A DNA stretch of 25,614 nt, from IMG/VR virus record IMGVR_UViG_3300014493_000025, positions 1 to 25,614 of that record; one strand, given 5' to 3'. Position 1 is the stretch's first letter. Every line of letters begins with the position of its first letter. The notes beneath the pieces are model-generated. The model saw nothing but the letters and a program-made list of their open reading frames with translations, searched no databases and was not told where the DNA came from. This document shows, piece by piece, positions 5,482 to 25,614 of this stretch. Source of the stretch: a virus. The position numbers and the translations under genes were made by a program.

Positions 5482-6768
5482 ATGATTACCAACTTACTAG
5501 TTTTGAACAGCAGTTATGTAGGATCCCATGATTTGTGGTGGGCTCATGATCCTGAAGCTGTTAAGGGTTACAACATTTATCGTGCTTACGAACACCCGTC
5601 TAACTGGGAATGTATTCAACAGAGTTGGGCAGGTAATTTCTATCGAGATATGACATCTCTTCAACAAGTCACATACACTCTCAAACCTGATGATTTTATT
5701 GAACAAGGAGAATTGGGACGTTGGGCTTTTAGGATACCAGATATTCCATATGCTACAGTACAAGCTGGTAGAGCTGTCATAAGCAATAGTCCGGATGATG
5801 TGAGCGTTACTGTAAGTGTAAGCGGCAATGTAGGTGTGGATGGACAAACATTTCGCCCCATAAAAGTTGAGGGGTTTGATCGTTCAATTTACATGGAAAT
5901 GGACAACACCTTAGCGGAAGGGGGAGCTGTGAGTGATACAGCTTTGGTTGATACAGATGATGTCAACCATGCTAATTACGCTGGCATAACTCTTTGGCAA
6001 GTAACTTACAATAAACTCATTAATTATGTAGATATTTATACCGCTTTAAATCGTGTTTATTATACAGTAGTACCGGTGAGTGCAAAAGGAGAGTTACATG
6101 CACCTGGGGATCACGGGTCAATGATAAAAAATACTCAAGAGGTAGATCAGATTGATTGGGTGTTTGAGGAAATGGTACGGCGTAATCAATATTTATTTGA
6201 AACAACTGGGGAACCAGCTTATCTTATGTTTCGCAAATGGCGAGGCACTGCTTGCGGCTGTGTGTACGGCAGTCAACAACCAAAAACAGGATGTAGGGTT
6301 TGTTTTGAAACAGGGTTTGTAGGCGGATACATAGGTCCGTATGATTTTCTTTTTGTACCTCCGGATTCCGCTTTGATGCGTGAGATTACTGAAGGTGGTA
6401 TCAAAACCACCAGAGACTCTCGTAGTTATTTGACTCGTACCCCAATCGTGCAGAACGGTGATTTAATCATACGGCGCAATGGGGATCGCATGACAATCAG
6501 CAATGTGGTTTACAAAATGCCGCGAGGTATTATTCTTCAGCAAGATTTCACCGTATCTTTGCTGTCGCCTGGGGATACTCGTTATTTAATTCCCGTGGTG
6601 AATACGGGGCTACCTACGATATTTAATCCTGTGGTTCGCCCCGATCCGCTGGATGGAAAAGGCGGGGGTGAGCCAGTATTTGATCCACGCACAGTTCCAA
6701 ATAAAGATTTTGAGAACGTGAATATTCCTATCGGTCGCACAGTGGAATTTGGCAAGATAACTTCCTGA
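5482..6768 (+). CDS. virion protein with zinc knuckle, connector/neck-like
   Basis: The 428-residue product begins with an FN3/Ig-like segment (LLVLNSSYVGSHDLWWAHD, GYNIYRA). A beta-rich region follows, then a helical patch (VFEEMVRRNQYLFETTGE), then a zinc knuckle at about 258-274 (CGC...CRVC, followed by FETGFVGGY). The CxC-x10-CxxC-xTGfvGGY pattern occurs in large-phage head-tail connector or neck proteins, which is the basis for the call. A beta-rich C-terminal domain carries a Pro/Gly-rich tail. ATG 5482 directly follows an in-frame TAG and has no clear ribosome site, so initiation may be weak. It is convergent with the minus-strand gene ending at 6830. Confidence 0.7.
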   Translation: MITNLLVLNSSYVGSHDLWWAHDPEAVKGYNIYRAYEHPSNWECIQQSWAGNFYRDMTSLQQVTYTLKPDDFIEQGELGRWAFRIPDIPYATVQAGRAVISNSPDDVSVTVSVSGNVGVDGQTFRPIKVEGFDRSIYMEMDNTLAEGGAVSDTALVDTDDVNHANYAGITLWQVTYNKLINYVDIYTALNRVYYTVVPVSAKGELHAPGDHGSMIKNTQEVDQIDWVFEEMVRRNQYLFETTGEPAYLMFRKWRGTACGCVYGSQQPKTGCRVCFETGFVGGYIGPYDFLFVPPDSALMREITEGGIKTTRDSRSYLTRTPIVQNGDLIIRRNGDRMTISNVVYKMPRGIILQQDFTVSLLSPGDTRYLIPVVNTGLPTIFNPVVRPDPLDGKGGGEPVFDPRTVPNKDFENVNIPIGRTVEFGKITS

Positions 6769-6829
6769 CTCCTAAACTTTTCGACTTTCTCAGAAATGGC
6801 GACTCCGCTTTTATGAGAACGCACAGACA

Positions 6830-7180
6830 TTAAATCAAGTAGTCTTTCATGGGCACTGACACGCTCCAGCGCGGTTCCACGCCGAGCCGGACGCACCGCT
6901 CAAAGTACTCCGCCTTGGCTTTGTCGTAGTCCAAGCCGTCCTTGGCGTACAGTTTGCGGTAGTTGTTCTCGGTGTCAAACCCCTCTACGGTGTTGAAGTT
7001 CGCTGGGCAAAAGGTGTAGTCATCCAAGGTCAACGGTCGGGCGATCCTTTTCTCAAGGCACGCTCGACAGCAGAACTCTCTGGGAAACAGTTTAGCGGCC
7101 GCCCAGACTGAGTCGAACACTATGAAGGTGTCGTGTTCTTGACGGCAGTCTTTGCAGGTGTAATCTCGTTTAGGTCTCAT
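6830..7180 (-). CDS. zinc-ribbon protein, 116 aa
   Basis: The 116-residue product has two Cys pairs, YTCKDCRQ (near residue 10) and FCCRACLEKR (near 40). They are followed by IARPLTLDDYTFCPAN, matching small phage proteins of the type 'CxxCxxxRxGRPLTxxDF'. The remainder is helical (LDYDKAKAEYFERCVRLG). It probably binds zinc; function unknown. The ATG at 7180-7178 has GGGAG immediately adjacent, an unusually short spacing, and no alternative start exists in frame. It is read opposite to the structural genes and lies 26 bases downstream of the 66-residue gene at 7207-7407, probably on the same transcript. GC is higher than the flanks. Confidence 0.75.
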   Translation of the reverse strand: MRPKRDYTCKDCRQEHDTFIVFDSVWAAAKLFPREFCCRACLEKRIARPLTLDDYTFCPANFNTVEGFDTENNYRKLYAKDGLDYDKAKAEYFERCVRLGVEPRWSVSVPMKDYLI

Positions 7181-7206
7181 CTCCCTGATTTTACACCAAA
7201 AAGTAA

Positions 7207-7407
7207 CTACGGTAAATCGGCAAGATCCTCTTCGAAGTAAATATCTAGAAGATACATTAGCGCCTCACCATTATCTCCATCTCCGCCTGATTTAAAGCAA
7301 AAATAATCATTATTTTGTGTAAAGTCAATAGCAGCAATATTGCGATAAATTTCCTCACTTCGTGGATCGTGTGGAATTCCTTTTTCCCAGCGTTCCTTTA
7401 CAGTCAT
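7207..7407 (-). CDS. conserved small phage protein, 66 aa
   Basis: The product starts MTVKERWEKGIPHDPRSEEI and contains AIDFTQNNDYFCFKSGG then DGDNGEALMYLLDIYFEE. The KERWEKGI/PHxP head and the xGGDGDNGExLMYxxDxxFE tail are a pattern I recognise from many unrelated phage and bacterial genomes, with no function known to me. It is small, acidic and presumably cytoplasmic. It is the first gene of a two-gene minus-strand unit. A sigma70-type promoter sits so close that the transcript may have almost no leader. Confidence 0.75.
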   Translation of the reverse strand: MTVKERWEKGIPHDPRSEEIYRNIAAIDFTQNNDYFCFKSGGDGDNGEALMYLLDIYFEEDLADLP

Positions 7408-7413
7408 TTTCCC

Positions 7414-7442
7414 ATAATACCATTAAAAATAACTATTGTAAA
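7414..7442 (-). promoter_or_regulatory. sigma70-like promoter for the minus-strand pair
   Basis: On the minus strand TTTACA (7442-7437) and TATTAT (7419-7414) are separated by 17 bases. Transcription would start about seven bases beyond the -10 box, near the ATG at 7407, predicting a leaderless or very short-leader mRNA. Confidence 0.4.
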
Positions 7443-7462
7443 CATTGTAGAGGTACATTCTC

Positions 7463-7981
7463 ATGACATTTGACGCAGCAGAGTTAGCAAAAACAGCTCG
7501 TATATTGGACGAATCGGATAGGCCGAATTCTGACCCAGAACTTCAGAAAATTGTAGGGGACCCGGATGATGCGAGAATTTCAACTTTCGCTCAGTTCGCC
7601 CCCAATCCCCGAGGTACTCTTCTTCCTAACCCTCTTTCACCTGTTGAAGGAGATGAGATATTTTTCGCCTATCTTATTCCTGGAGCTAAGTTTCAATCAC
7701 ATGATGGAAGTCAGTGGATGATTGAAGATTATCCTTGGCAAGGAATGGTGCAGATTACTAATGTATGGTACCCGCGGATTAACGCCCAAGTATCTGTATA
7801 TGATGTTCGAAGATCTATAGAGCAATATGTTGAACCCATACAACAGTTTATTCCACCTCCCCCTCCTGGAGTTGATTATTCTGCTTTACGTGTAAAGATT
7901 GTAGACGGTCCAGAAACCTACGGAGCTGGAGACGAATTGTCTACGGGTAGTAGCAAATCATATGTACCTAGCGGGTGGTAA
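7463..7981 (+). CDS. probable virion protein, 172 aa
   Basis: ATG 7463 has AGAGGT at 7449-7454 with eight bases of spacing. The N-terminal half is acidic and probably extended (MTFDAAELAKTARILDES). A beta-type core follows (EGDEIFFAYLIPGAKF, SQWMIEDYPWQGMVQI). The C-terminus carries a Pro run (QQFIPPPPPGVDYSALRVKI) and a Gly/Ser-rich end. It lies between the zinc-knuckle virion protein and the 639-residue structural protein, which suggests a role in head completion or the neck. No named family can be assigned. Confidence 0.65.
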   Translation: MTFDAAELAKTARILDESDRPNSDPELQKIVGDPDDARISTFAQFAPNPRGTLLPNPLSPVEGDEIFFAYLIPGAKFQSHDGSQWMIEDYPWQGMVQITNVWYPRINAQVSVYDVRRSIEQYVEPIQQFIPPPPPGVDYSALRVKIVDGPETYGAGDELSTGSSKSYVPSGW

Positions 7982-7996
7982 AGGTCATAAATCACG

Positions 7997-8185
7997 ATGA
8001 TAGTTTATTGTCAGACAAACACCTGTAGTGAAGCACACTGTGCCCATATTAGTCAGGCGAAAAAAGGTCATGGCCTCGGCCGAAAACATTCACCTGAATC
8101 AGAGCGTATGCGTATAGCTAGAAGCCTGTACTGGGCTCGTAAAAAGGGGGTCAAAGGATTAAGTCCTTTGTTTTCATATAGTTGA
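7997..8185 (+). CDS. small Cys-containing protein with NUMOD3-like motif, 62 aa
   Basis: The 62-residue frame starts MIVYCQTNTCSEAHCAHI and continues KKGHGLGRKHSPESERMRI then ARSLYWARKKGVKG. The central G-x-KHSPES-x(n)-A-x-SLYW-ARKKG segment resembles NUMOD3-type DNA-binding motifs found in homing endonucleases, but no nuclease domain is present. It may be a leftover or a very small DNA-binding protein. No good ribosome site is visible. Its last codons contain a short hairpin followed by TTTT and overlap the open frame of the next gene. Confidence 0.45.
   Translation: MIVYCQTNTCSEAHCAHISQAKKGHGLGRKHSPESERMRIARSLYWARKKGVKGLSPLFSYS
8152..8174 (+). terminator. weak hairpin plus T4 within the 3' end of the 7997 gene
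   Basis: CAAAGGA (8152-8158) pairs with TCCTTTG (8164-8170) around the loop TTAAG and is followed by TTTT (8171-8174). The stem is seven base pairs and AT-rich and the U-tract is short, so at best this is a weak or partial terminator between two structural genes. Confidence 0.35.
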
Positions 8186-8213
8186 TTTATCGGGGGCCAA
8201 TCTTGTAAATTAT

Positions 8214-10133
8214 TTGCGGCGGATCATAGAGGAAGCTGTCTCTAAAAATCCCAGATTCAAACAGACTTTGGGAAATGTGACATTCGTTGCAAATACACGT
8301 ATTGCGTGGAATGATGTTCAAGTTACATTCACCAACATAACTACTTCAGGCACGAGACTTTCGCCTGATTATTTTATGTGTACCCAAATTGGTCGAGCCA
8401 TTCTCGCTAAGGTGGGAGACAAAGATGGGCAATTCATCGAATGGACTAGAGAAACAGATAAAACTCGTCTAACTCCCGATGCTGGTGTTTACTATATCAA
8501 TGTAGATTTTTTTGATGACCAGACCAGGGATTTGGGGCTCACGGTACAAAAATATCGATGGATTGAAGGAAAGCTAAAACAGGCTCAAGGGTCTATTGTA
8601 TATTTTGCTCCCGGCATTGATGTAACCACAATATCAATGTCAGATGCTGCTACATCTCTTCCGGTACAGTTTACCGGCTTCAACCAAAGTTTAGGAGCAT
8701 TTGCTTATTTACTCAATCCTACTCAAACTCTGGTTTGTACTTACATAAGCGGTCCAAACACCGGTCAGCGTCTAGCTCCTCTTACAGAGTATTGGTACGA
8801 GCATCCTCAAAGTGTATCTGTAGTCTCTTCTACAACCGATGGAAATGAACTTATTAATATTCCCAATCCTTACATTTCTGTAACCTTTACGGATCAAAAT
8901 GGATACGAGTTACGGCAGGGAATTGATTACAATTTTCAAGGGGATCAATGGATTACTCTCTCGTCTCTATATCCGCTCGGGACTACAATCACAGCCAACA
9001 TGATAGTGAAACAGAATCCTTACTATACCACCGGTACAATGCCAGAAAATATTCTGCAAGTAAATATGACAGGCACTGAAACTTTAGCTCCGGATCAAGT
9101 GTTTATTCATACCCCAGCTGGCACATTCACAAATCCAATTGTTAACTCCGATGGCACACTTACTATTCCTCAACTGCTAACACCCGGGGACTGGCTACGC
9201 TGGGAAGTCAGAGTTAATTCCGGTCAGCAGAAAGCGGTGGCTAAAAAATTGGAATTGAATAGTTTGACTTTAGTGAATCCTTTAAGTATTACATACACCA
9301 AGACCGGGGCTAATGGTACAACATACCCTATAACAGCTGCCCAAGTAGCCACTGCGGACGATACAGAGCTTGTGGGCGTGAAACAAACATCCGCAGGGGT
9401 TCCACAGCCCTTCAATTCCACTATCGCCCCTATAACAGCTACTTTGATTTATGACAATGTATTAACCGTAACAGCGAATAATACATTTCAAGCTGGTGAT
9501 ATGGTGTTATTGGGTGCAACAAAAGAGCGATTTTTGAACGGAAGCGTGGTTACGGTACTGGCTTCTGGACTATCTGATACTCAATTTACAGCCAATTTTA
9601 CATGGAACAACTATGTAAATACCACAGATACAGGCACAGCATGGGGACAACGAAAGCTAATATTGCCTGGTTTAAGACTGGCTATAGGTGACAATGTAGT
9701 GGTAGGAGACCAATGTGCAATTATAGTAAGTCCAACTTTAACAGAGACTTATGAAGTATTTGGTTCCAAGGAAAACCTCTCCTTCACGTTGGAAGTTAAA
9801 GCAAATGACATGCAAACAGCTTCTGATCTCTCGGAGATGTTAAAACGGGAACTTTTGATTTATAGTCGCACTAACACTGAAGCGGATGGATTGACTATTT
9901 TTGAAATTACCAGAAGTTTTATTGGTCAGGCTCGTGATCCCAGCGCCACAGCTCCTAGTTACGTATTTTCAGTTTCAGTAACCGCTTCAGCAGATTGGAA
10001 AGTCTATGTACCTTTAGTTACACGACTGGCTAGTCTGGAAATTGTTGGCATTCCATACGCAAGCACTAAACTCCATCTTAATCCTCGTTTAGCCGCTTTT
10101 GGGAATATGGTTTTTATCCCTGCATACAGTTAA
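8214..10133 (+). CDS. large beta-rich virion protein with tail-completion-like C-terminus
   Basis: The 639-residue product has an N-terminal helix, then several beta domains. One (about 215-275: NPYISVTFTDQNGYELRQGI, ITLSSLYPLGTTITA) resembles the insert domains of the sheath downstream. The C-terminal 120 residues (ENLSFTLEVKANDMQTASDL, then LKRELLIYS, then SVSVTASADWKVYVPL) look like neck or tail-terminator subunits of large myoviruses. The start is uncertain. TTG 8214 is the only plausible start codon, but it has no ribosome site, and the frame is open back to 8163 with helix-like sequence (LVNYLRRIIEEA) before it. GGGGG at 8192-8196 would suit a start near 8202, where the codon is CTT. 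Confidence 0.7.
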   Translation: MRRIIEEAVSKNPRFKQTLGNVTFVANTRIAWNDVQVTFTNITTSGTRLSPDYFMCTQIGRAILAKVGDKDGQFIEWTRETDKTRLTPDAGVYYINVDFFDDQTRDLGLTVQKYRWIEGKLKQAQGSIVYFAPGIDVTTISMSDAATSLPVQFTGFNQSLGAFAYLLNPTQTLVCTYISGPNTGQRLAPLTEYWYEHPQSVSVVSSTTDGNELINIPNPYISVTFTDQNGYELRQGIDYNFQGDQWITLSSLYPLGTTITANMIVKQNPYYTTGTMPENILQVNMTGTETLAPDQVFIHTPAGTFTNPIVNSDGTLTIPQLLTPGDWLRWEVRVNSGQQKAVAKKLELNSLTLVNPLSITYTKTGANGTTYPITAAQVATADDTELVGVKQTSAGVPQPFNSTIAPITATLIYDNVLTVTANNTFQAGDMVLLGATKERFLNGSVVTVLASGLSDTQFTANFTWNNYVNTTDTGTAWGQRKLILPGLRLAIGDNVVVGDQCAIIVSPTLTETYEVFGSKENLSFTLEVKANDMQTASDLSEMLKRELLIYSRTNTEADGLTIFEITRSFIGQARDPSATAPSYVFSVSVTASADWKVYVPLVTRLASLEIVGIPYASTKLHLNPRLAAFGNMVFIPAYS

Positions 10134-10167: not shown

Positions 10168-10524
10168 ATCGCTATTTATGAGTTTTTGTGCCTAACCGAA
10201 TCCTGCGGAGTGGTTACTGAACATATTTGTTCTATGGGGGATCGCCCAGATACTATTCCCTGTTCTAAATGTGGTGGTTTGACAGAACAAAAAGTATCAC
10301 AAATCGCTGTGCTTACAGGAAATATGTCCAACCCATCCTTAGATGTAGCAATTGGTAAAGATGCCGCCGAACGCTGGGGAATCATTCATGATCGAGCGGC
10401 AGTTAAAGACAAAATCCGAAAAGAAAGTGGTAAACAAATCTTAGCCAAAGTGGACGGAAAGTATGAACCAAGCACTAAAACTAGGTTGGATTTTGTTAGT
10501 ACACCAGAACCTTTGGATGATTAA
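10168..10524 (+). CDS. FmdB-like zinc-ribbon protein, apparent ATC start
   Basis: The protein reads xAIYEFLCLTESCGVVTEH, then CSMGDRPDTIPCSKCGG, then AERWGIIHDRAAVKDKIRKE. FmdB-type zinc ribbons normally begin MPIYEYxC and end the ribbon with CxxCGG, and phage members carry the 'AxRWxxIHxRxAxKDxxRKE' tail seen here. The codon aligned with the family Met is ATC (10168-10170), with AGAGGG at 10155-10160 and a seven-base spacer, the normal geometry. No ATG, GTG or TTG lies nearby; a TTG at 10099 would add 23 unlikely residues inside the previous gene. The product is 118 residues. Family members are called regulators or assembly accessories without firm evidence. Confidence 0.7.
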   Translation: MAIYEFLCLTESCGVVTEHICSMGDRPDTIPCSKCGGLTEQKVSQIAVLTGNMSNPSLDVAIGKDAAERWGIIHDRAAVKDKIRKESGKQILAKVDGKYEPSTKTRLDFVSTPEPLDD

Positions 10525-10525
10525 T

Positions 10526-11317
10526 ATGGGTGGAAAAAATAGAATAGATATAACAGGACAAAGATTTGATCGTATTTTGGTTCTTAGTTATAACTCAACT
10601 AAAAATAAAATAACTTATTGGAATTGTATTTGTGACTGCGGTAAAGAGAAACTTATTAGTGGAGCATCTCTTCGCAACAGATGCACACGTAGTTGCGGAT
10701 GTCTTGCTCATGAAATCAGGATAATGAAAGGTAAGAAGACTAAAAAGAAATGGGTAGATATAACAGGACAAAGATTTGGTAAATTAGTAGTTCTTGGATA
10801 TACCGATGATCGTAAGAGAGGCTATGCTATTTGGCGTGTTCAATGCGATTGTGGAAGTCCAGAGAAAACTTATTGTACGGCATCTTTGACGAGTCGAAAA
10901 CATCCAACTAGAAGTTGTGGTTGTTTATGGCGTAAACCGTTAGGAGAGGCTTGTAGATTGCGCGTGCTTAGAGGATATAAAAGAAACGCAAAAACACGAT
11001 CGCATATTTGGGGGCTAACGGATGAACAGTTTTTTATACTTATTCAACAAAACTGTCATTATTGTGGTATGTCTCCATCCAATACGAGTTATGAAAAAGA
11101 AAGTAATGGACCTTATATCTACAATGGAATTGATCGTAAAAATGGCACTCTTGGATATTTTTTAGAGAACTGTGTTCCTTGTTGTAGACCCTGTAATTGG
11201 GCTAAAAGACATATGTCATATGATGAGTTTATGGCTTATTTACAACAACTTGTTCAATATCATAATGAAAAACAGACTTTTACTACCTTAAATAGAATGG
11301 CAGCAATCAGTTATTAG
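10526..11317 (+). CDS. HNH homing endonuclease with two DNA-binding repeats
   Basis: The 263-residue product (ATG 10526, one base after the previous TAA) carries two copies of a phage DNA-binding module. Copy one is residues 7-59 (DITGQRF...CICDCG...SCGC) and copy two 77-133 (DITGQRFGKLVVLGY...CDCG...SCGC). Residues about 164-225 form a Cys-rich HNH-type nuclease: NCHYCGM, then NGIDRKNGTLGYFLENC, then VPCCRPCNWAKR. It is free-standing, AT-rich, and sits directly before the sheath gene. Free-standing homing genes typically cut alleles lacking them and copy themselves with the flanking DNA. An earlier frame opening at 10463 lies inside the FmdB-like gene and is not needed. Confidence 0.85.
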   Translation: MGGKNRIDITGQRFDRILVLSYNSTKNKITYWNCICDCGKEKLISGASLRNRCTRSCGCLAHEIRIMKGKKTKKKWVDITGQRFGKLVVLGYTDDRKRGYAIWRVQCDCGSPEKTYCTASLTSRKHPTRSCGCLWRKPLGEACRLRVLRGYKRNAKTRSHIWGLTDEQFFILIQQNCHYCGMSPSNTSYEKESNGPYIYNGIDRKNGTLGYFLENCVPCCRPCNWAKRHMSYDEFMAYLQQLVQYHNEKQTFTTLNRMAAISY

Positions 11318-15534: not shown

Positions 15535-17424
15535 GTGAAATCTAAACTTATTAGCCGAAGAATAAAAGCGACAGTAGCAGTTAGCAAGCAAACAATGGAA
15601 GATGCTATTCAACAAGCTAGTATTCTAAAGCAAGAATGGATGAGTAAGAATCAAAATGACCCCCGAGTGGATGAACTTCAGCGAATAGTCGAGCATTTGA
15701 CAAGTGTCCTGAAGAAGGACCCACAAAGCATGAAATCAGAAGGGGCATCCACTATTGAAAACTATATGGATGATGCAGTAATGCCACAAGAGGCAAACAC
15801 AATCAAGAGAGAGGTTGATATGATTTTAAATTGGCGAAAACAAGGTTCTACTAAGAAAGCAAACGCTGGTGCATTTGTTACAGACCGCGATGAAAAGGGC
15901 GAACCAAAAACACCCGAAAAAATGGAAGTACCCCGTTTAGCGGCGAAGAAGAAGAAAGAAGCTATCCCAGAACCTCCAATTGCTGACCCTATGGCCAATC
16001 CCGCTACTGATGTTTCTGACCCAGCCGCTGAACCCGTGGCAATGGACCCAGTATCTGCTCCACCCACTACCCCGCAAGATGCAGGCGGCGAAGTGAATCC
16101 AATTGATTATATTCCAACGGATGCTTTGATTAAAATTATTGGCGATATGCCAAAGGAAGAAGATTTTGCTCAAAGTAAACCTAAGCAAGATGCTTTAATC
16201 AAGTTGACGGAAATTCTTAAATCGCGTCCTATTTTACCTCCGGAACAACCCGAAGGACAGGGACAAGCACCAGTAGCTCCAGCCCCAGCCTTAGCAAATA
16301 CACCAATTGCAGCCTCAAATAAGAGAGCTGATCTCGGTGACCATGCAATGGGTGGTAATGGAAATATAGGTGATGTTGGTCATGGAAGCGGATCACACTC
16401 CACGAATAAAATGGATTCTGACTCTAGTACCAATAATGGTAATCCAATCCCAGGTCAAGCGCCGATTGAGTTAGGCGGTTTGAATTTAGCAGCATCTGAA
16501 AAAGTTGCCGATGAAAGATATCAATTACACAATTTAAAAGTTGATGAATCTGGCGTAGAACCCAGCCATGCACCTGGTAGTTTACCAGACATGGATGAAC
16601 AAGAACAACATATGCACCCAGAAAACCCTGAGGATGATCGTTTTTTTGATCACGGACTTCAAGAAGAAGGCATAGCCCCCACAGGTATGTTGCCTGGGGA
16701 TCTCGGAGAAAACGATCCGGTGATGGAAGCTGGAGCATTTACAGATAAAGAAAGTGTATCTCCTGAAGGTTGGGGCGGTACGGTTGAACATATGAAGGAT
16801 CATAAAGATATTGATAATCCTTTTGCCTTGGCTTATTACATGAAAAATAAAGGGGACTCTCCTCATTACAAAGAATCTGATGATGAAACAGATACCGTTC
16901 CACGGCGTATGGCAGCATTGGCGCATTGGAAAAAGCGTCAAGCTAGTATGTATCGAGAACTAGCAGCAAAATATGCTTCCGGTGCTGCTGGCGGTGCATG
17001 GTCTTTTGATATCGGGGAAAAAGGTAAAGTCGTTGAAGATGGTGGGCGTACACCAGAAGTTGGGGAAGCTCACAGTATGCTAGATGAAGCTCCAGCTAAA
17101 CTAGAGCGTCCAGCTACAACAGCTCCTATCAAATTAGCTGCTGATATGACTGTAAGTAAGGCTGTAAAGCAGTCAGAAACTATAGGTAATGAACTTAAAA
17201 AGAAATACTTAGAAGCAAAATCTCTTACCTTGGTAAATGATTCTCGTCCAGTGCGAGAGGCAGTAGAATCAATTTTCCGCGCGGCGGCTATGTTTGAAAA
17301 TGCTACTAAAACACTCAGCAAACAACAGCAAGCTGAAGAGAGTGAAGCAGAAGCAGCGATGATCAAAGAGAAAAATAAAAAATCATCTATGTTGGGCGGT
17401 TTGGAGTTAGCCGCCGCTGTGTAA
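15535..17424 (+). CDS. 629-residue modular, mostly disordered phage protein with LAA motifs
   Basis: The start is GTG 15535, with AGGGG at about 15523-15527; an ATG at 15531 opens only four codons. The N-terminal 100 residues are helical (TMEDAIQQASILKQEWM; VDELQRIVEHLTSVLKK). A long Pro/Ala/Glu/Gly linker region follows, then a recognisable block at about 408-445 (EGWGGTVEHMKDHKDIDNPF then ALAYYMKNKGDSPHYK). The C-terminus is coiled-coil-like (about 545-615). Short motifs recur at module edges: RLAAKKK (134), NLAASEK (317), ELAAKYA (475), KLAADMT (533) and ELAAAV at the C-terminus. A virion, scaffold-like or polyprotein role is possible. It lies between sheath and tube and shares boundary motifs with the giant protein at 22336. 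Confidence 0.65.
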   Translation: MKSKLISRRIKATVAVSKQTMEDAIQQASILKQEWMSKNQNDPRVDELQRIVEHLTSVLKKDPQSMKSEGASTIENYMDDAVMPQEANTIKREVDMILNWRKQGSTKKANAGAFVTDRDEKGEPKTPEKMEVPRLAAKKKKEAIPEPPIADPMANPATDVSDPAAEPVAMDPVSAPPTTPQDAGGEVNPIDYIPTDALIKIIGDMPKEEDFAQSKPKQDALIKLTEILKSRPILPPEQPEGQGQAPVAPAPALANTPIAASNKRADLGDHAMGGNGNIGDVGHGSGSHSTNKMDSDSSTNNGNPIPGQAPIELGGLNLAASEKVADERYQLHNLKVDESGVEPSHAPGSLPDMDEQEQHMHPENPEDDRFFDHGLQEEGIAPTGMLPGDLGENDPVMEAGAFTDKESVSPEGWGGTVEHMKDHKDIDNPFALAYYMKNKGDSPHYKESDDETDTVPRRMAALAHWKKRQASMYRELAAKYASGAAGGAWSFDIGEKGKVVEDGGRTPEVGEAHSMLDEAPAKLERPATTAPIKLAADMTVSKAVKQSETIGNELKKKYLEAKSLTLVNDSRPVREAVESIFRAAAMFENATKTLSKQQQAEESEAEAAMIKEKNKKSSMLGGLELAAAV

Positions 17425-18445: not shown

Positions 18446-19894
18446 ATGCCTAAAAATTTAACTCAAGAAGAATACATTCAAAAAGCAATAACCACTCACA
18501 ATCACACTTATGATTATTCCGCTTTAAAATACAAAAATGCTGTAACTGAAGTAGAAATTATTTGTCCTACCCATGGTTCTTTTTGGCAACTTCCGTATAA
18601 TCATTTGAAAGGAAGTGCTTGCTCTAAGTGTGGGAATTTAAAAAAAGCCGCCCCCCATCAGACCACAGTAGAATTTATTGCCGCCTGCAATAAAATCCAC
18701 AATAATTATTACACTTATCTCCCCCATTTTCAGCACATTGGTTATAATGTAAAAATAGAAATTACCTGCCCTGTACATGGAGTTTTCAAACAACGAGCCA
18801 ATAATCACTTAGCTGGAAGAGGCTGTCCAAAATGCGGTAGAAATAAAGCTCGAACTATTTTACTAAAAGACTACCCTATTATCCCAACACTTCAACTCAC
18901 ATCCGCTATCGCCAAAAAGAAAAATAATGTGTGTTCTCTAGTACCGCAAGAACACACATTCGGCTGTCTTATTCCAGGTAAAAATGAATTTTCTCCTGTT
19001 CTAAAAGTTGAAGAAGTTATCAAAACCTTGGGAGTAGTTTTTGAATCAAATAATCGTCAAGTTATCAAACCTTTGGAGTTAGACATATGGATTCCCGACT
19101 ACAAACTAGCTATAGAGTTCAACGGTAAATATTATCATTCACTAGATGGCACAGAACCTCCTCAATTCAAATTTAAGCATAGGGACAAATTTGAGCGTTG
19201 CCAAGAAGCTGGAATTTCGCTACTTCAAATTGATGAACATGAGTGGAACGACCCTGTTATTCAAGAAATCTGGAAATCCGTTATAGCATCGAAACTGGGT
19301 AAGCACCGGCGAGTCTTTGCCCGTTGTACCAAATTTTATCAAATATCTAGGGATGAAGCGGAACAATTTTTAGCGGAAAATCACCTTCAAGGAACGACCC
19401 CATCTGCTAATCAAGATTGGTGTTATGGACTAAAACTGAATAATGAGTTAGTAGGGGTAATTACTTTTGCTAAACATGAGAAGAAATTTATTAACCTAAC
19501 TCGTATGGCATTTCCTCGTGGGGTTACAGTAGTAGGAGGGGCTCAAAAACTTTTCAAAAACGCATTAAAATATTTACCTACCATACCCATTGTCACTTTT
19601 TCAAACAATCGCTACAGTGGTGGAGATGTGTATAAACATTTGGAGTTTGTATCTGATAAATTGCTACCCCCCAGCTACCAATGGTATTTTCAAGGAAGAG
19701 TATGGAATAAAAGACAGTTACGCAGGAAGTATTTACCTCAGATTTTGCAGAATGAACTTGGTTTCAATCCACTGGAAACAGAGCATCAAAACATGTATAG
19801 AAATGGAGCTAGGTGTATGTATGACGCGGGATATGAGCGTTGGATTTATCCTCGATCAATCACTTTAAAAAAGATACCACAATGTTGCGTTTAG
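18446..19894 (+). CDS. homing endonuclease: DUF723 repeats, Vsr/PD-(D/E)XK-like core
   Basis: The 482-residue product has two DUF723-type modules: residues 6-62 (YDYSALKYKN...CPTHGSFWQLPYNHL...CSKC) and 75-130 (CPVHGVFKQRANNHL...CPKC). A nuclease-like core at about 205-270 follows: LELDIWIPDYKLAIEFNGKY with D213 and E224-x-N226-x-K228, then KHRDKFERCQEAG and QIDEHEW. The arrangement resembles very-short-patch repair and phage homing nucleases. The C-terminal 180 residues (NELVGVITFAKHE, VVGGAQKLFKNALKYLP, VTFSNNRYSGG) match a domain often attached to such enzymes. No ribosome site precedes ATG 18446, because the terminator's T-run abuts it. The stop overlaps the convergent gene by four bases. 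Confidence 0.75.
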   Translation: MPKNLTQEEYIQKAITTHNHTYDYSALKYKNAVTEVEIICPTHGSFWQLPYNHLKGSACSKCGNLKKAAPHQTTVEFIAACNKIHNNYYTYLPHFQHIGYNVKIEITCPVHGVFKQRANNHLAGRGCPKCGRNKARTILLKDYPIIPTLQLTSAIAKKKNNVCSLVPQEHTFGCLIPGKNEFSPVLKVEEVIKTLGVVFESNNRQVIKPLELDIWIPDYKLAIEFNGKYYHSLDGTEPPQFKFKHRDKFERCQEAGISLLQIDEHEWNDPVIQEIWKSVIASKLGKHRRVFARCTKFYQISRDEAEQFLAENHLQGTTPSANQDWCYGLKLNNELVGVITFAKHEKKFINLTRMAFPRGVTVVGGAQKLFKNALKYLPTIPIVTFSNNRYSGGDVYKHLEFVSDKLLPPSYQWYFQGRVWNKRQLRRKYLPQILQNELGFNPLETEHQNMYRNGARCMYDAGYERWIYPRSITLKKIPQCCV

Positions 19895-20736
19895 CGCGTC
19901 GAGGCTTGCAACGTCACACTTCTGAGCGCTGACGTGATGAAGCTTTGTCTAAAATTGATACCACAAGTTAAGCCCGATTCGGCTGTTTCCCAGCGCCAAT
20001 TTTTTTGGCTCCATTTAACATTTTTTTCGTAAAATTTACTATGGAAGTTCCACAGTTTAACGATAAGCAAAGATTCACCATCGGAAGGAAAAATATTCTT
20101 AACGACACCGATACCTTTATTTTTGATATGCAAGCGATCCCCAACAGCTATTTGACGAGCTGCGGGGCGTGTCTCATACCAACTTTTGCGAATGTCGATA
20201 AGATGAGCGATCCCCTGTTGACTCCAGCCATAATCTTTCATCCATAAAGGGATTTTCTCGCCTTTGGGTGAGGCTTCTTCTTTCACTTGAAGGTAAATAT
20301 CCACGTTGAAGGCGATGAGTGTTTCGAGTCTTTGCGCCACATCCTGCATGGAATAGGGAACCATGCTAGGGGGGATAATGAAGAATTTTGGGTAGGCGTA
20401 TTGCGCACGCCAGCCTAAGGAGTGTCTGAGCAATTTCCCCCAAAGCGATACTTCCCCGTGGATTCCTGAACTGGCATAATTGATGCTGATCAAGTGCTCA
20501 AGATTAATTCCCGCATACATCCCACAGGTACAATCTTCATCTGGGCATTGATGGAGCGGAGCAAGGTTCACAGCTTCACAACAGGCTTCAAATGCAACTC
20601 CAGGTGTCCACGCGGCGTTATTAAGAGACTTTACACCATCGGCATCCCATTGCCAAGCCCGATATGCCGTAAAGGGCATAATGTAATCAGGCACCTGCTC
20701 AACTTTGGGATGCACCAGTTTGAGTCTGCGTTTCAT
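19891..20736 (-). CDS. Cys/His-containing accessory protein, 281 aa
   Basis: The product begins MKRRLKLVHPKVEQVPDYI and contains AYRAWQWDADGVKSLNNAAW, then CCEAVNLAPLHQCPDEDCTC then GMYA, then GEVSLWGKLLRHSLGWRAQY then AYPKFFI. The motif order (AYRAW / W-P / H-P-x-x-C-x-C-G-x-Y-A / GEVxLWGxxxxHxxGxRAxxAYP) is one I recognise from uncharacterised proteins of phages and actinobacteria. The Cys/His cluster probably binds a metal. Residues about 200-255 add a small SH3-like segment (VGDRLHIKNKGIGVVKNI). It is the second gene of a minus-strand unit: its ATG (20736) directly follows the TAA of the 45-residue gene. GC is higher than in the phage structural genes. Confidence 0.75.
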   Translation of the reverse strand: MKRRLKLVHPKVEQVPDYIMPFTAYRAWQWDADGVKSLNNAAWTPGVAFEACCEAVNLAPLHQCPDEDCTCGMYAGINLEHLISINYASSGIHGEVSLWGKLLRHSLGWRAQYAYPKFFIIPPSMVPYSMQDVAQRLETLIAFNVDIYLQVKEEASPKGEKIPLWMKDYGWSQQGIAHLIDIRKSWYETRPAARQIAVGDRLHIKNKGIGVVKNIFPSDGESLLIVKLWNFHSKFYEKNVKWSQKNWRWETAESGLTCGINFRQSFITSALRSVTLQASTR

Positions 20737-20874
20737 TTAGGCAGGAACCTCAATTGGTTCCGGTTCAGGCACATACAAAGGGTTTGGCTGTTCAATTTCA
20801 CGCCCGGGCATAGCACAGGGCAATTCCAACGGCTCGACAAACAAGGTTTCCTGCGGTACTCCGATATAGCACAT
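20737..20874 (-). CDS. Pro-rich small protein, 45 aa
   Basis: I start this at the ATG read from 20874, which has AGGGAGGAAC directly upstream with ideal spacing. The frame is open further to 20994, but that would read through a promoter-like site and a hairpin. The product begins MCYIGVPQETLFVEPLELPC and ends in a run of Pro-Glu pairs (VPEPEPIEVPA). It is acidic and probably disordered. Its TAA is immediately followed by the ATG of the 281-residue gene, so the two are likely co-translated. No family is recognised. Confidence 0.6.
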   Translation of the reverse strand: MCYIGVPQETLFVEPLELPCAMPGREIEQPNPLYVPEPEPIEVPA

Positions 20875-20892
20875 AAATTGTTCCTCCCTACT

Positions 20893-20921
20893 ATAATACA
20901 CTAAAAACACCAAAACACCAA
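20893..20921 (-). promoter_or_regulatory. promoter-like site for the 45/281-residue gene pair
   Basis: Reading the minus strand, TTGGTG (20921-20916) and TATTAT (20898-20893) are separated by exactly 17 bases, a sigma70-type arrangement. The start point would lie near 20886, only about a dozen bases before the ATG, just including the GGGAGG ribosome site. Confidence 0.4.
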
Positions 20922-20930
20922 TTTGGAATT

Positions 20931-20968
20931 TATGGGTGCTACCTCCTCCCGGTTCGGTAACACCCATA
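20931..20968. other. imperfect 12-bp hairpin with a Shine-Dalgarno-like loop
   Basis: TATGGGTG-c-TACC (20931-20943) pairs with GGTA-a-CACCCATA (20956-20968), with one internal mismatch. On the minus strand the 12-base loop contains GGGAGGA. There is no T-run on the minus strand, so it is not a standard terminator for the DUF932 gene. It could be an operator, an mRNA processing or stability element, or a start-site decoy. Confidence 0.5.
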
Positions 20969-21063
20969 TTTCCCCGTACTTTCAACTGGAGCACTCCCCA
21001 ATGAAAAACCTTTACAGTTTCCCATTGACTACTACATCATGAAGTGCTTCAGTCGAAAACCTT

Positions 21064-22188
21064 TTAGAACGCCATATCAATCAGGCGTCCCGCAGCCTCA
21101 TCCATCTTCAACCGAGTATCAGCAAACGGCTGATCCTGAGAGAGACGAGTCAAACCCTGTGCCATACCCCAAATGGAGTTCGGCTTGCCGTCAGTGCTTT
21201 CGTTAGCAATCGCCAGCGTCTGGGCGGCTTCTAACTGCTTGCGGGATACCGGCGCACCAGCCTTCTTCAAATTAGCAAAGATGGTGTCGATTACCTGCTC
21301 TTGATCCGCAGCAATGATGGTAGATTTGGCGGTGCGAATCTTGGCTTCGATATCGCTCACCGATTCATTGGCATAGCGGTTGAGTTCGATATGCAGCCGG
21401 TCAAGCATAACATTCATGCGGTCCTTCACCTTGCCAACATGTCGCAAGGCGATTTCGCTAACATCCTTTGCCCCCCACACGATATGATTCGAACATATGA
21501 ACCTGTATAGGAAAGTGGTGATGCGCAGTTTTGAGGCACCCACTTCAGAATTTTCAACGAAGAATCCGCGTCCCAAACCTTCGGGATTTCCCGGTTCGTT
21601 GATGCGATTGTTGTTGTTCACGAGAAATACGAACATATCGTGATCGGAGACATAGATGGTTTTTTCCCGCGTCCGACCTGTAGCAGCCGCACTCATGCCG
21701 CTATGCTCGAAAGCAACCGGGGTGTTCCATCCGTACTGCGGATAATCCAGCATCCGACGTAGAAGGTCATGGTTCCAAATGCGGGTGTATTTTTCCGAAG
21801 TCAACGCCCGTACCACCAAGCCCCCATTAGCGTGAACCAAAAGATTCACGCGCTCATCGGGGTCGATATAGCGGGTTTTCAGACCATGGTTAATATTTTG
21901 GACGGCGAGAGTAGCGGGTAGTTTACGAAGATAGGAAGCCGGAGCTTCGACACGGGCGGCGAGTTGACCGAAAGCCCAATTGGTCAAAGTAGCGGGTTCG
22001 TTGCCCTTACCTACGAGTTGAACTTCACTATTGTATGCTTCTACGCGCAGAGTGGCGGGATCGACATTAGCTTTTTCCCGGCTGGAATTGGCGTAGGCTA
22101 GAGATTGTTCGTAGGCAGTTTGAATATCGTTGAATTTTTCGTCGTCTGGGCGGGTGCTCCACTGCTGACTAGCTTTGAAAAGTTCCAT
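21064..22188 (-). CDS. DUF932 (phage/plasmid-like TIGR03299-type) protein
   Basis: The 374-residue protein has the DUF932 layout. An N-terminal segment (LRVEAYNSEVQLVGKGNEPA, then LTNWAFGQLAARVEAPASYL) is followed by the family core: LVHANGGLVVRALTSEKYTR, YVSDHDMFVFLVN, LGRGFFVENSEVGASKLRIT, FICSNHIVWGAKD. The C-terminal third is helical (VKDRMNVMLDRLHIELNRY). DUF932 proteins are widespread in phages, plasmids and mobile islands; their biochemical role is not established. GAGGACAAT precedes the ATG at 22188. It has its own promoter-like site at 22261-22290 and is GC-richer than its phage neighbours, suggesting acquisition as a cassette. Confidence 0.85.
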   Translation of the reverse strand: MELFKASQQWSTRPDDEKFNDIQTAYEQSLAYANSSREKANVDPATLRVEAYNSEVQLVGKGNEPATLTNWAFGQLAARVEAPASYLRKLPATLAVQNINHGLKTRYIDPDERVNLLVHANGGLVVRALTSEKYTRIWNHDLLRRMLDYPQYGWNTPVAFEHSGMSAAATGRTREKTIYVSDHDMFVFLVNNNNRINEPGNPEGLGRGFFVENSEVGASKLRITTFLYRFICSNHIVWGAKDVSEIALRHVGKVKDRMNVMLDRLHIELNRYANESVSDIEAKIRTAKSTIIAADQEQVIDTIFANLKKAGAPVSRKQLEAAQTLAIANESTDGKPNSIWGMAQGLTRLSQDQPFADTRLKMDEAAGRLIDMAF

Positions 22189-22335: not shown

Positions 22336-25300
22336 ATGAAATCCCCATTGTTCAAAAAACAAGCTCTGGATGCTCTGCTGGAAGTTATCAATGACCCAGA
22401 GTACGCCACGCATCAACATCATAGCGACCCGGATTTTACCACTCAGACGGGCAAAGATTACGCCGGACGCGGTTCCACAGAAGTAGAAAATGGAGTGAGT
22501 GTAACGATTCCACCAGAGGCAATCACCGCAGCAATTGAACCCGACCAAATCGATACCGATCCCGATGTAGAATTTCATCGCCAATATGATTTCATGCAAA
22601 TGTTGAAAAAAACCTTCCGAGGCTGGACGGGTGGAAATCCTTTTTATCATTTTCAAATGCCAATGAATTCTGTTCGTTTATATTCTGATGGTTGGAAAAT
22701 TCAGCGATTCGATAAAGATACTGGGGTTGAAGGCAAGACCTTAGAAGAATTGAAAGCATATTTGTCAAAAGCAGATTGGGTTCGAAATCTTAAACCCGCG
22801 GCTCCTCCTTATCTAGAAAGAACTATTGAGGGGCAAATACCCAATAAAAAATTGACAGCTGCTACCGTGAGTTTTATAGGACCCCACAGCGATATTGCTC
22901 CTACGAAGACACACAACAAAAATTACATCTGGGTATACCACCCTAGCTACGGGTTTTATTTCGCTGAGGGTATGACAGCTGATCACATAAAATTGTTTAA
23001 AGGGGTTCACGCGTCCACAAGTTTTCCAGGGGCTAAAATTCCCAATAATTTATACGATGATTGTAATCGAGGGTATGCTTGGGTAAAGAAATCCACGAAA
23101 TACATATCTTTAGACACTTCTACCGCTATTGAACCAGAATGGGATTTTATCCCGCAAGCTGTAGTGAAGGGATTTAAGAAATATTTTCCTGGTTATACTT
23201 TTGATGAGGATTTTTCAAAGCTAACTTCAAAGAAAGCGGCAACCACCGTTCGTTTTATCGGTCCGCATTCTGATGTACCTATCGCTGAAAGCAGGGCTAG
23301 ATATTACTGCTGGTTATACCACCCAGATTACGGATTTTACTATGGAGAGGGTACTGAAAGTGATCATTGGAGATTTATAAAGGGGGAATATGAGGGGGCG
23401 ATGATCCCCAGAATATCATATGATAAGTCAATTCGTGGGTACGCTGAAGTCAATAGAATTAAAAAAACCGTAAAGTTGGAGATTAGTATTGCTTCGTCTC
23501 AGTGGGAAAATACAGTCCCACCTATCGCCGTTAAAGTATTTAAAAAAAATCTTCCTGGGTTTGAAGTTAGCGTAAAAAAATCCTTACTAGGTAGCATGGA
23601 TTCTCCAATAAATGAAGAAGTGCAGGAACATACCTTTTTTAAGGAAAGCGATCCTTTAAAGCCCCAAGGGTATAATTTTTTTAAGGAAAGTGACCCTGAG
23701 TTTGAAATGACGGCCGCTGGAGTTCACCGAACAGAAGAAGACCTTAACCAGGTATTAGAAAAATTTGGGTACACTTATAGTGGTAAATATGAAAATGGTT
23801 TGCACCGCTGGAGCCGAGGAAAAAATGAATATATTATATTTAGCCCACCAAAAAATTCTATTACTCATTTTTTAAACTCTGAGGCTGACTTAGTGTGTAG
23901 CGCCAATGATTTGGAAGATAAGATAGCTCTTTATCATAATTTTGAACGACCTACTCCTCAATCAATTCCTATAACAGCGTCTAAATCCTGTGTTGCGTGT
24001 GAATGTGGTGGTTGTATTGAGCATGAAGATATACCGCAGTGTAATGGTTGTGATCGAGCCAAAAAAGATTGTATATGTGAGGACTGTACCTGCCCAGAAA
24101 ACCCACGAGCTGTTACAGCTGATGGAAGTATAGCTTCCAAATCCGCGGCCAAAAGTAAGCAAGAAAGATACATGTTAGATACTTTCTATCCGGGGCGTAG
24201 AGTTAAATACTGCGGAAGTGCGAAATGTTATGATGAGTTGATAAGGGGCTTGCCGCTTATAGGTATAGTGGTGGAAAATGGCTACTTTGATAGAAAGCTC
24301 AGGGAATGGCGTGTCCCAGTGACATGGAACGGATACGAAGAGTCCCAGCGTAAGCTTCGTCGCATCGCCCCATTTATGAGTAATTTAATACCTTTGAACG
24401 ACCAAGGAGAATTATTCTCGGATGATAAAACAGCCGCTATGGGTAAAGCTGAGAAACATTTTTTAAGTTTTAAACCTGGGGATAGGGTTGTATTTTATAA
24501 ACCCTATATGGGTAAGCATGAGGGAACAGTAGTAGATAACGGCGACCATTGGTATTATAATTCAAAATTTAAAAATGGAGTTGTTCCAGTTCTTTGGGAT
24601 TATCAAACTGATAAAGGGATTGTAGCTGTACCAACTTCTGATAAGTTAATTCATTTGAATGACCAAGGAGAATTATGTGCTTCAGAAAAAACATCAGCGA
24701 TAGGCAAGGATGAAAAATATATCAGAGATAACTTCAAAGTAGGGGGTAGAGTTCGATATCACAAATCAAAATCAGAGGGTACAATTGAATCCATAGGACC
24801 ATACAACCCAAGAAACAGATCAGCTGTAATTGGAATTAGATGGGATGGTGGTAATAGGATATCCTATGTCCGGGCCGCGGATTTGATTCCTCTGAATGCC
24901 CAAGGAGAATTATTTTCCCAAGAGAAAACGGCGTCCAGTCCACTAGAAGCCGAAGCCTTTATTGAATGGGGCGGGGTATACGATCATCGACATTTGGAGT
25001 TGGACGAGTATAAAGGTACTTGGGAATGGACAGATTATGACGCTTCTGATGCTTTAAATGTCGGTAGGCAGGTAGGTGAATGCAAATCTTTAGAAGAAGC
25101 CAAAGAAAAGCTGGAACGAGTGGTTTTCAATATTGGAGAACCTCGTACATACATCCATTATAGCGATGATGAGCATATCAAGAAACAGGATTATTTGGCA
25201 CCAGAAGAAAAAGGATTTCTCCGTGATACGGGAGTAGGTACTGATATTAAGCCCGATTTCTCTAAAGATTATTCTCCTTATACTCGGGATAAAGATTTCC

Positions 25301-25614
25301 TGAATTCAATGGGCATCAAAGCCAGAAAGAAAGCTCAAGAAATTTTATCCCCGCAGAGTATGAAAAACTCCCCCATTCATCAATATATGCGTTCTTTAGG
25401 TCAATGGTATCATGTTTCCGGTAGTTTATATAGAAATGTTAAACACCCAGAAATGGTGCTTTCTGTATTTGATGACGGTTGGACAATTAGACAGTGGGGA
25501 GAAAATATAGATAGCGGGGAAGACATCAATACATTGAAAACTTATTTGGCAAGCCACGACTTGGATACAGATACTTCAATGAAACCATCACCCAATCGCC
25601 ATGTTGATGTTTCA
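22336..25614 (+). CDS. giant modular phage protein, 3' end outside the window (>1093 aa)
   Basis: One frame stays open from ATG 22336 to the last base (1093 codons). The ribosome site is poor: AGG touches the ATG. Modules in order: residues 83-148 contain VRLYSDGWKIQRF, echoed at 1012-1076 by LSVFDDGWTIRQW. Tandem domains lie at 177-291 and 304-411, each starting TV(S/R)FIGPHSD and containing 'YHPxYGFYxxEG'. A duplicated FFKESDP follows (434-454), then a ten-Cys cluster at 552-586, then three SH3/KOW-like repeats (about 609-866), each closing with LNxQGEL(F/C). Motifs at module edges read KLTAAT, KKAATT, MTAAGV, ITASKS, VTADGS, KTAAMG, KTSAIG and KTASSP. It is probably a virion or injected polyprotein. 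This is inferred; no family was recognised for the whole. Confidence 0.8.
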   Translation, partial: MKSPLFKKQALDALLEVINDPEYATHQHHSDPDFTTQTGKDYAGRGSTEVENGVSVTIPPEAITAAIEPDQIDTDPDVEFHRQYDFMQMLKKTFRGWTGGNPFYHFQMPMNSVRLYSDGWKIQRFDKDTGVEGKTLEELKAYLSKADWVRNLKPAAPPYLERTIEGQIPNKKLTAATVSFIGPHSDIAPTKTHNKNYIWVYHPSYGFYFAEGMTADHIKLFKGVHASTSFPGAKIPNNLYDDCNRGYAWVKKSTKYISLDTSTAIEPEWDFIPQAVVKGFKKYFPGYTFDEDFSKLTSKKAATTVRFIGPHSDVPIAESRARYYCWLYHPDYGFYYGEGTESDHWRFIKGEYEGAMIPRISYDKSIRGYAEVNRIKKTVKLEISIASSQWENTVPPIAVKVFKKNLPGFEVSVKKSLLGSMDSPINEEVQEHTFFKESDPLKPQGYNFFKESDPEFEMTAAGVHRTEEDLNQVLEKFGYTYSGKYENGLHRWSRGKNEYIIFSPPKNSITHFLNSEADLVCSANDLEDKIALYHNFERPTPQSIPITASKSCVACECGGCIEHEDIPQCNGCDRAKKDCICEDCTCPENPRAVTADGSIASKSAAKSKQERYMLDTFYPGRRVKYCGSAKCYDELIRGLPLIGIVVENGYFDRKLREWRVPVTWNGYEESQRKLRRIAPFMSNLIPLNDQGELFSDDKTAAMGKAEKHFLSFKPGDRVVFYKPYMGKHEGTVVDNGDHWYYNSKFKNGVVPVLWDYQTDKGIVAVPTSDKLIHLNDQGELCASEKTSAIGKDEKYIRDNFKVGGRVRYHKSKSEGTIESIGPYNPRNRSAVIGIRWDGGNRISYVRAADLIPLNAQGELFSQEKTASSPLEAEAFIEWGGVYDHRHLELDEYKGTWEWTDYDASDALNVGRQVGECKSLEEAKEKLERVVFNIGEPRTYIHYSDDEHIKKQDYLAPEEKGFLRDTGVGTDIKPDFSKDYSPYTRDKDFLNSMGIKARKKAQEILSPQSMKNSPIHQYMRSLGQWYHVSGSLYRNVKHPEMVLSVFDDGWTIRQWGENIDSGEDINTLKTYLASHDLDTDTSMKPSPNRHVDVS
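22864..23568 (+). repeat. two tandem 'IGPHSD' domains
   Basis: Copy 1 spans 22864-23208 and copy 2 23245-23568. Both contain FIGPHSD, an aromatic YHPxYGFYxxEGxxxDH segment, a RGYAxV segment and a closing VFKKxxPGxxxx helix. They are clearly homologous at protein level and diverged at DNA level. Confidence 0.8.
23635..23697 (+). repeat. short internal duplication encoding FFKESDP
   Basis: Two near-identical 21-base segments (23635-23655 and 23677-23697) encode FFKESDP, separated by a seven-residue spacer (LKPQGYN). They differ at two synonymous positions, so the duplication is fairly recent or conserved. Confidence 0.8.
23989..24093 (+). other. ten-cysteine cluster within the giant protein
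   Basis: Residues 552-586 hold ten Cys: CVACECGGC, then QCNGC, then DCICEDCTC. The CxxC/CxC spacing suits binding of several zinc ions or a compact disulfide/metal knot. It stands between ITAS and VTAD boundary motifs, as a separate module. Confidence 0.7.
24160..24933 (+). repeat. three SH3/KOW-like repeats with a shared LNxQGEL linker
   Basis: Each unit has F-x-x-G-x-R-V-x-(Y/F), a (E/I)GTIxxxG-like strand, a W(N/D) strand and the ending L(I/H)xLN(D/A)QGEL(F/C). The endings lie near 24390-24435, 24645-24690 and 24885-24930. The linker is also conserved in DNA (CAAGGAGAATTAT in all three), suggesting unit duplication. Confidence 0.75.

Follow-up and report, generated by a model that had tools for sequence, protein, structure and literature searches.

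A giant modular phage protein with a recurrent K-T/S-A motif at its module joints: a candidate substrate of the neighbouring head maturation protease

The giant protein and its joint motif

The viral DNA fragment analysed here, from a large soil phage (IMG/VR record IMGVR_UViG_3300014493_000025), which is referred to over its whole length of 25,614 bases as the window, ends within a giant modular gene whose frame is open from the ATG at position 22336 through the right end, and which extends past it. A preliminary description had noted a short motif at nearly every boundary between the small domains of the encoded protein, and raised the question of whether this motif is a cassette-building linker or a cleavage site used during virion maturation. 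Judged from the sequences, cleavage is favoured: the motif recurs at the termini of the phage's head maturation protease and major capsid protein (MCP), is selected at the protein level, and tracks the protease family. We consider it fairly probable that the giant protein is a virion-packaged cargo polyprotein of the polyvalent type, which would be cut at its joints by the phage's own head protease.

The portion of the gene within the window (22336..25614, plus strand) comprises the first 1,093 of 2,556 codons. The complete gene was obtained from two sister contigs, L003 and L002, with essentially full identity to the window protein. The L003 copy encodes 2,556 residues from ATG 22336 (P0002; remainder at L003:13280-17671), and the L002 copy is a few residues longer. 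Directly downstream, on the same strand, lie the genes of the head maturation protease (P0003), a scaffold-like protein (P0004) and the MCP. Direct sequence relatives of the window protein were absent among 50,697 phage records, and IMG/VR yielded the sister contigs only; homologues were therefore reached via the neighbouring protease. The 80 loci obtained in this way were reduced to 40 non-redundant ones, and their proteins were grouped by position into the positional homologues of the giant protein (group G, 41), the protein preceding the tube gene (group E), scaffold-like proteins (group S), and all others, which served as controls (group C).

All eight motifs listed in the preliminary description (KLTAAT, KKAATT, MTAAGV, ITASKS, VTADGS, KTAAMG, KTSAIG and KTASSP) are present at module joints, at residues 172, 299, 458, 546, 593, 698, 785 and 864. 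The pattern [KLIVM][TK]A[ASD] occurs nine times in the 1,093 residues, against 0.45 expected from whole-protein shuffles and 0.7 from shuffles within 15-residue blocks; because it was defined on this very protein, p-values obtained there are optimistic, and the other phages constitute the unbiased test. An MTAD at residue 213, inside the first IGPHSD module and missing in the second copy, probably reflects chance, and the C-terminal 1,463 residues of P0002 contain just two matches.

With the window phage excluded, the same pattern was found 63 times in group G against 22 expected, 108 times in S against 37, and 47 times in E against 23; it was not enriched in the other proteins of the same loci (85 against 76). 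KTA was the most enriched 3-mer of group G, again without the window phage (67 against 11.5 expected, in 30 loci); the observation is real, and its signal is replicated outside the window phage. The consensus across the family is K-T/S-A or [K/R]-x-A-[A/S]. Compared with local shuffles within 15-residue blocks, K.A[AS] was counted 98 times against 38 in G (z 11), 78 against 43 in E (z 6), 197 against 89 in S (z 11) and 79 against 61 in the controls (z 2). Tail proteins and the other controls lack the signal.

An excess of this kind could be a by-product of disordered segments rich in Lys, Ala and Thr combined with module duplication. The three window sites copied along with the SH3-like modules, which are not independent, and the post hoc choice of the pattern are compatible with such an origin, but the order of the residues is not: against 67 occurrences of KTA in group G, its permutations reach at most 28 (KAT 9, TKA 3, TAK 22, AKT 28, ATK 3), and removal of similar contexts leaves 45 unique KTA contexts versus at most 17. 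The enrichment survives both the 15-residue shuffling and this de-duplication, the controls are flat, and three distant isolates reproduce the result while T4 and phiKZ lack it, as described below. The by-product explanation is largely refuted by these data and is regarded as extremely improbable.

Module shuffling and position of the joints

The duplicated modules noted in the preliminary description correspond to two IGPHSD modules and three SH3-like modules. A shuffled module order, sought in metagenomic phages, was found: the IGPHSD module follows the conserved N-terminal segment in two copies in the window phage, and precedes it as a single copy in L030 and L042. Relatives of this module outside the window phage and its sister contigs were detected in only three loci. 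The same phage also encodes a separate protein of 1,291 residues (P0005; L005:9729-13604, minus strand) that apparently consists mostly of SH3-like modules related to those of the giant protein, with KTAAMGK placed identically in both. Each of five ART-like modules found in differing contexts starts within a few residues of a preceding NAAA, KSAA, KTGAA or KKAA. Modules are thus shuffled between phages, and the motif is two to three times commoner than expected at block edges; in group G, the strict motif lies at most 8 residues from the edges of alignment blocks in 62 cases against 23 expected.

Since the AlphaFold alignment of the 1,093 residues placed the shuffled modules badly, two segments were modelled separately. 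In the model of residues 590-880, whose mean predicted local distance difference test (pLDDT) value is 62, none of the sites is placed within a beta-barrel; they are predicted at the beginnings of linker helices or in disordered stretches. The modelled barrels match tudor/KOW/SH3-like folds (Foldseek E=3.5e-5).

Shuffled modules, and motifs above expectation at block edges, would also result if the motif were a DNA- or peptide-level cassette linker serving the exchange of modules by recombination, with no proteolysis involved. However, the codon choice at KTA sites follows the background and varies within one gene, which indicates that selection acts at the protein level, and the protease tail, the MCP and the scaffold, none of which is a module joint, contain the motif as well. 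A cassette linker is, therefore, very unlikely. Its DNA-level form was rejected, as the DNA of the joints is no more alike than codon usage predicts.

The motif in the head protease, the capsid protein and distant phages

The variable C-terminal tail of the protease keeps [K/M]-x-A-S in 36 of 37 homologues, versus 2.1 in shuffles (examples are FAKAAS, MAKIAS, FAMTAS and KKVAS), in a placement that would be expected of a self-processing site. The MCP carries LLKTAGG at its N-terminus, and the distant relatives show LLKSAAG (L081, L085 and Tunturi_5) or YIKTAAG (LR745208) there. The isolate closest to the window phage is Tunturiibacter phage Tunturi_5, a myovirus of 309 kb that infects an Acidobacteriota host.

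The analysis was extended to three distant isolates with homologous proteases, namely phage G, Gordonia phage Stormageddon and Mycobacterium phage Phrappuccino. The SMGC-type protease of phage G (gp19) contains KTAA, KVAS and KIAS sites, and the head-gene block of this phage has 14 K.A[AS] sites against 3.3 expected, with 2 against 1.9 in neighbouring genes. In the set formed by the portal, the large protein preceding the protease and the protease-scaffold fusion, [KR].A[AS] occurs 18 times against 6.3 in Stormageddon and 21 times against 6.6 in Phrappuccino; the remaining proteins give 4 against 3.0 and 4 against 4.0, respectively.

The cleavage sites of T4 and phiKZ end in Glu. The [K/R]-x-A-[A/S] pattern is not enriched in the head proteins of either phage (4 against 4.8 in T4, 9 against 8.5 in phiKZ), and T4's own Glu-type class, [LIAV].E, is recovered by the same method as a positive control (87 against 64, z 3.9). 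Conversely, [LIAV].E is not enriched in the head sets of phage G, Stormageddon and Phrappuccino (z -0.1 to 1.0), where K.A[AS] or [KR].A[AS] is, in line with the earlier suggestion of a specificity not ending in Glu. The reversed pattern was never enriched in any of these phages. Across distant phages, the motif tracks the presence of the protease family, and, as a wider rule, the head-gene-cluster proteins of phages with a PHROG 18299-type protease carry order-specific [K/R]-x-A-[A/S] sites.

An enrichment that extends across all head-interior candidates, the scaffold-like protein included, would also be produced by an uncut sorting or docking signal that recruits head proteins to the prohead, for instance by binding scaffold, shell or protease; the same proteins do contain further recurrent linear motifs (FFKES, LPPRDD, DKxFLxxMGI). 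Yet the C-terminus of the protease and the N-terminus of the MCP are the usual cut places of T4- and phiKZ-type prohead proteases, the copies at module joints exceed what docking needs, and the T4 cleavage motif gives the same kind of enrichment by the same method. We therefore regard an uncut signal as rather unlikely. The tail sheath and tube genes located just upstream in the window could instead point to a tail-associated or non-virion protein, with a motif that reflects another phage protease. But a gene of this kind, variable in length, is found immediately, or a short distance, 5' of the head protease gene in most of the 40 non-redundant loci, and the motif is common to scaffold, MCP and protease but not to tail proteins, which makes such an assignment quite unlikely.

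Comparison with polyvalent proteins and with head-interior proteins of other phages

Contrary to the earlier view that such phage polyproteins were undescribed, multidomain virion proteins of phages and conjugative elements, termed polyvalent and predicted to be injected with the DNA, were described in 2017 (Iyer et al., PMC5512222). The giant protein resembles them in its large size, in its late-virion gene neighbourhood, with tail sheath/tube-type genes on one side and head protease, scaffold and MCP genes on the other, and in its shuffled architectures, in which putative ART- and nucleotidyltransferase-type modules, and GNAT ones in relatives, occur amid small uncharacterised domains. For polyvalent proteins, release by embedded zincin metallopeptidases, which are common but not universal, has been proposed (PMC5512222). 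By contrast, the 2,556-residue P0002 has no HExxH zincin motif, and shares its joint motif with the head maturation protease and the MCP. This difference suggests a processing in trans by the head protease rather than by an embedded metallopeptidase.

Searches of Pfam, PHROGs and the PDB returned nothing for P0002 or P0005 as wholes. For the ART-like segment (residues ~1109-1259), nearly all the top Foldseek hits have the ART fold (E=0.055, from a low-confidence model with a pLDDT of 53), and the nucleotidyltransferase-like segment (residues ~2240-2400) gave a weak match to the AbiEii-type toxin structure 8an4 (E=0.0035). Clear GNAT domains are found in the positional homologues L056 and L021, and TPR and other domains also occur in relatives. 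Tunturi_5 (PP885688, PMC11924767) shares with the window phage a homologous protease (59% identity), a homologous MCP (71%) and the gene order. Its gp321 (L089:3769-7857), encoded in the virion-gene cluster, combines ART-PolyVal (E=6e-48), 2H-type (weakly Acb1-like), GNAT and SprT-like domains; it is annotated as a MutT/NUDIX hydrolase, although a Pfam scan up to E=0.05 finds no NUDIX domain. The protein gp321 is thus a polyvalent protein in an isolate. In contrast to the window phage, the Tunturi_5 protein at the position of the giant (gp330) has only about 170-178 residues, and the cargo seems to reside in gp321 and perhaps in gp273.

The processing proposed here has parallels in the internal and ejection proteins of SPN3US, phiKZ and T4 (PMC10052503, PMC9026906), which reside in the head interior and are cut by a self-cleaving phage head protease; some of these substrates carry the cleavage motif many times. 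Apart from self-cleavage, the cuts in SPN3US take off N-terminal propeptides (PMC10052503). The candidate site described here differs in being K/R-x-A followed by A/S, and in its placement between modules. Bacillus (Lysinibacillus) phage G has a homologous MCP (gp27, 6WKK) as well as the SMGC-type protease gp19 and the K.A[AS]-enriched head-gene block; unlike in the window phage, the MCP lacks a KTA site.

We infer a location of the giant protein in the virion, with a conserved frame that carries changing small modules (SH3-like, Cys-rich, IGPHSD, ART-like and nucleotidyltransferase-like ones in the window phage) separated by joints, namely short segments bearing K-[T/S]-A or [K/R]-x-A-[A/S]. 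As the prohead matures, these joints are most likely cleaved, probably on the C-terminal side of the Ala, by the head maturation protease whose gene comes next, and the same enzyme would cut its own C-terminus, the scaffold and perhaps the N-terminus of the MCP. The freed modules would remain in the head, exit with the DNA, and act on the host as infection begins. We hold as about evenly balanced the broader proposal that a large protease family, represented in phage G, in myoviruses of actinobacteria and in jumbo phages of Acidobacteriota, cuts [K/R]-x-A-[A/S] between the last two residues and not after Glu, and that one of its branches turns a head-packaged polyprotein of up to ~2,500 residues into separate early-infection effectors. 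The open literature searched yielded no report of cleavage sites for proteases of this family, and trans-processing with the [K/R]-x-A-[A/S] specificity was not found in searchable papers, where 'polyvalent' virion proteins are known.

Several observations weigh against cleavage of a packaged polyprotein. The window joints LTAA, MTAA, ITAS and VTAD lack the consensus basic residue (P3), the C-terminal half of the giant protein has fewer sites, and [KR].A[AS] is slightly commoner than expected in the remaining window proteins as well (9 against 4.2). Within alignments of related proteins, strict sites show no depletion; this comparison gives no signal, as close relatives can be aligned over their whole length. 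The hydrophobicity of the KTA flanks is not below average, so the status of the sites as linkers rests on the block edges and on one model of moderate confidence. The MCP of phage G has ALETEEG at the corresponding site, and any cleavage of that MCP would need another sequence. Furthermore, the ART-like and nucleotidyltransferase-like assignments are weak, and the main text of the Tunturi_5 paper (PMC11924767) reports no virion proteomics.

If correct, the proposed processing would provide a readable cleavage rule for a widespread, uncharacterised head protease family, and would make it possible to predict from sequence which mature virion proteins the phage G-like, actinobacterial and Acidobacteriota phages have. 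It would also explain how one gene yields many small effectors, as modules shuffled into a packaged carrier and released by the head protease, in what would be a bacteriophage counterpart of viral polyprotein processing inside the prohead. The isolate Tunturi_5 makes the specificity of the protease directly testable.

Architecture of the giant protein

The window portion of the protein (all features on the plus strand) starts with a conserved N-terminal segment, SPLFKKxALDALL...HQHHSDPDFTTQ..KDYAGR (residues 1-55; 22336..22500), which is common to many positional homologues and has a short relative in Tunturi_5 gp330 (178 residues). It is followed by the joint motif ITAAIE (residues 63-68; 22522..22539) and by a small module, D1a (residues 70-150; 22543..22785), for which no relatives were found. 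KLTAAT (22849..22866) precedes the first copy of the IGPHSD module (22864..23205), and KKAATT (23230..23247) is situated between this and the second copy (23242..23610). Two FFKESD linear motifs at residues 434 and 448 (23635..23694) come next; FFKE is the most enriched 4-mer in the positional homologues (23 loci). The joint motif MTAAGV (23707..23724), aligned to MSASG in L048 and INASG in L014, leads to the small module D1b (23719..23940), which has relatives in several phages, and ITASKS (23971..23988), aligned to KTSALKS in L014 and KSALKS in L048, leads to a Cys-rich module (23980..24105). The first part of the latter is common to L014 and L048. Its earlier designation as a Cys-knot is unsupported; the stretch looks like a metal-binding cluster and is probably metal-binding.

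VTADGS and KSAAKS (24112..24156) lie ahead of the first of the three SH3-like (tudor/KOW-like) modules (24151..24921). These modules are separated by KTAAMG (24427..24444), outside the beta-barrels in the model, and by KTSAIG (24688..24705), in a segment that is modelled with low confidence where a linker helix begins; KTASSP (24925..24942), after the third module, is disordered in the model. Most SH3-like modules have QxELF/QLDLF-type sequences at their ends, with at least 11 cases in P0005 and 3 in the giant protein (24403-24414, 24664-24675 and 24901-24912). These ends resemble QL[S/D]LF, the motif by which proteins bind the bacterial sliding clamp, and it would be notable for a virion protein to carry many peptides of such a clamp-binding-like kind. 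A single-residue difference was observed in the second SH3-like module at window position ~24676, with QGELC in the window and QGELF in both sister contigs.

Further downstream, the recurrent linear cassette D-K-x-F-L-x-x-M-G-I-..-S-K-x-A is present as DKDFLNSMGIKARKKA (25285..25344, with the cassette at 25288-25335). In the positional homologues, D-K-x-F-L-x-x-M-G-I-x(2-3)-S-K-x-A has 14 matches versus 0.07 in shuffles and none in the controls, and the D-K-x-F-L-x-x-M-G-I cassette is repeated several times per protein, for example in the L072 open reading frame 5833-9963 and in P0006. The strongly conserved sequence HETPxxLPPRDDMRRHLDE is found at residues 2046-2092 of P0002 (L003) and in homologues. 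The constant frame of the giant proteins consists of the N-terminal segment, FFKES, HETPxxLPPRDD and a C-terminal zinc-ribbon-like domain.

Neighbouring genes

The downstream protease P0003 belongs to the PHROG 18299 head maturation proteases both by profile match (E=1.2e-12, residues 92-245) and by its position before the scaffold and MCP genes; proteases of this type are annotated as head maturation protease in Tunturi_5 and as capsid maturation protease in Stormageddon. P0004 is an acidic, Lys/Ala-rich scaffold-like protein of 754 residues, and the MCP matches the PHROG major head protein and is homologous to phage G gp27 (PDB 6wkk, E=5e-52). Upstream, the window contains a tail sheath gene (PHROG 2839), a tube-like gene and, judged by gene position, the counterpart of the Tunturi_5 'DNA ejection protein' gene. 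This counterpart (15535..17424, plus strand) encodes a homologue of 629 residues with 6 [KR].A[AS] sites against 2.0 expected.

Homing-endonuclease-like genes are inserted between virion genes at window positions 10463-11317 and 18446-19894, and at L011:16280-17485. The L011 gene matches the NUMOD3 profile, and the two window genes were recognised by eye as encoding zinc-ribbon/HNH-like proteins. At the right end of L002, the phage scaffold gene is broken off and the sequence continues on the opposite strand with a gene (19781-21070, minus strand) that we take to resemble bacterial LpxB, which suggests a chimeric assembly. In L048 (9998-12157), an intein-like insert with Hint and LAGLIDADG_3 profiles interrupts the head maturation protease gene.

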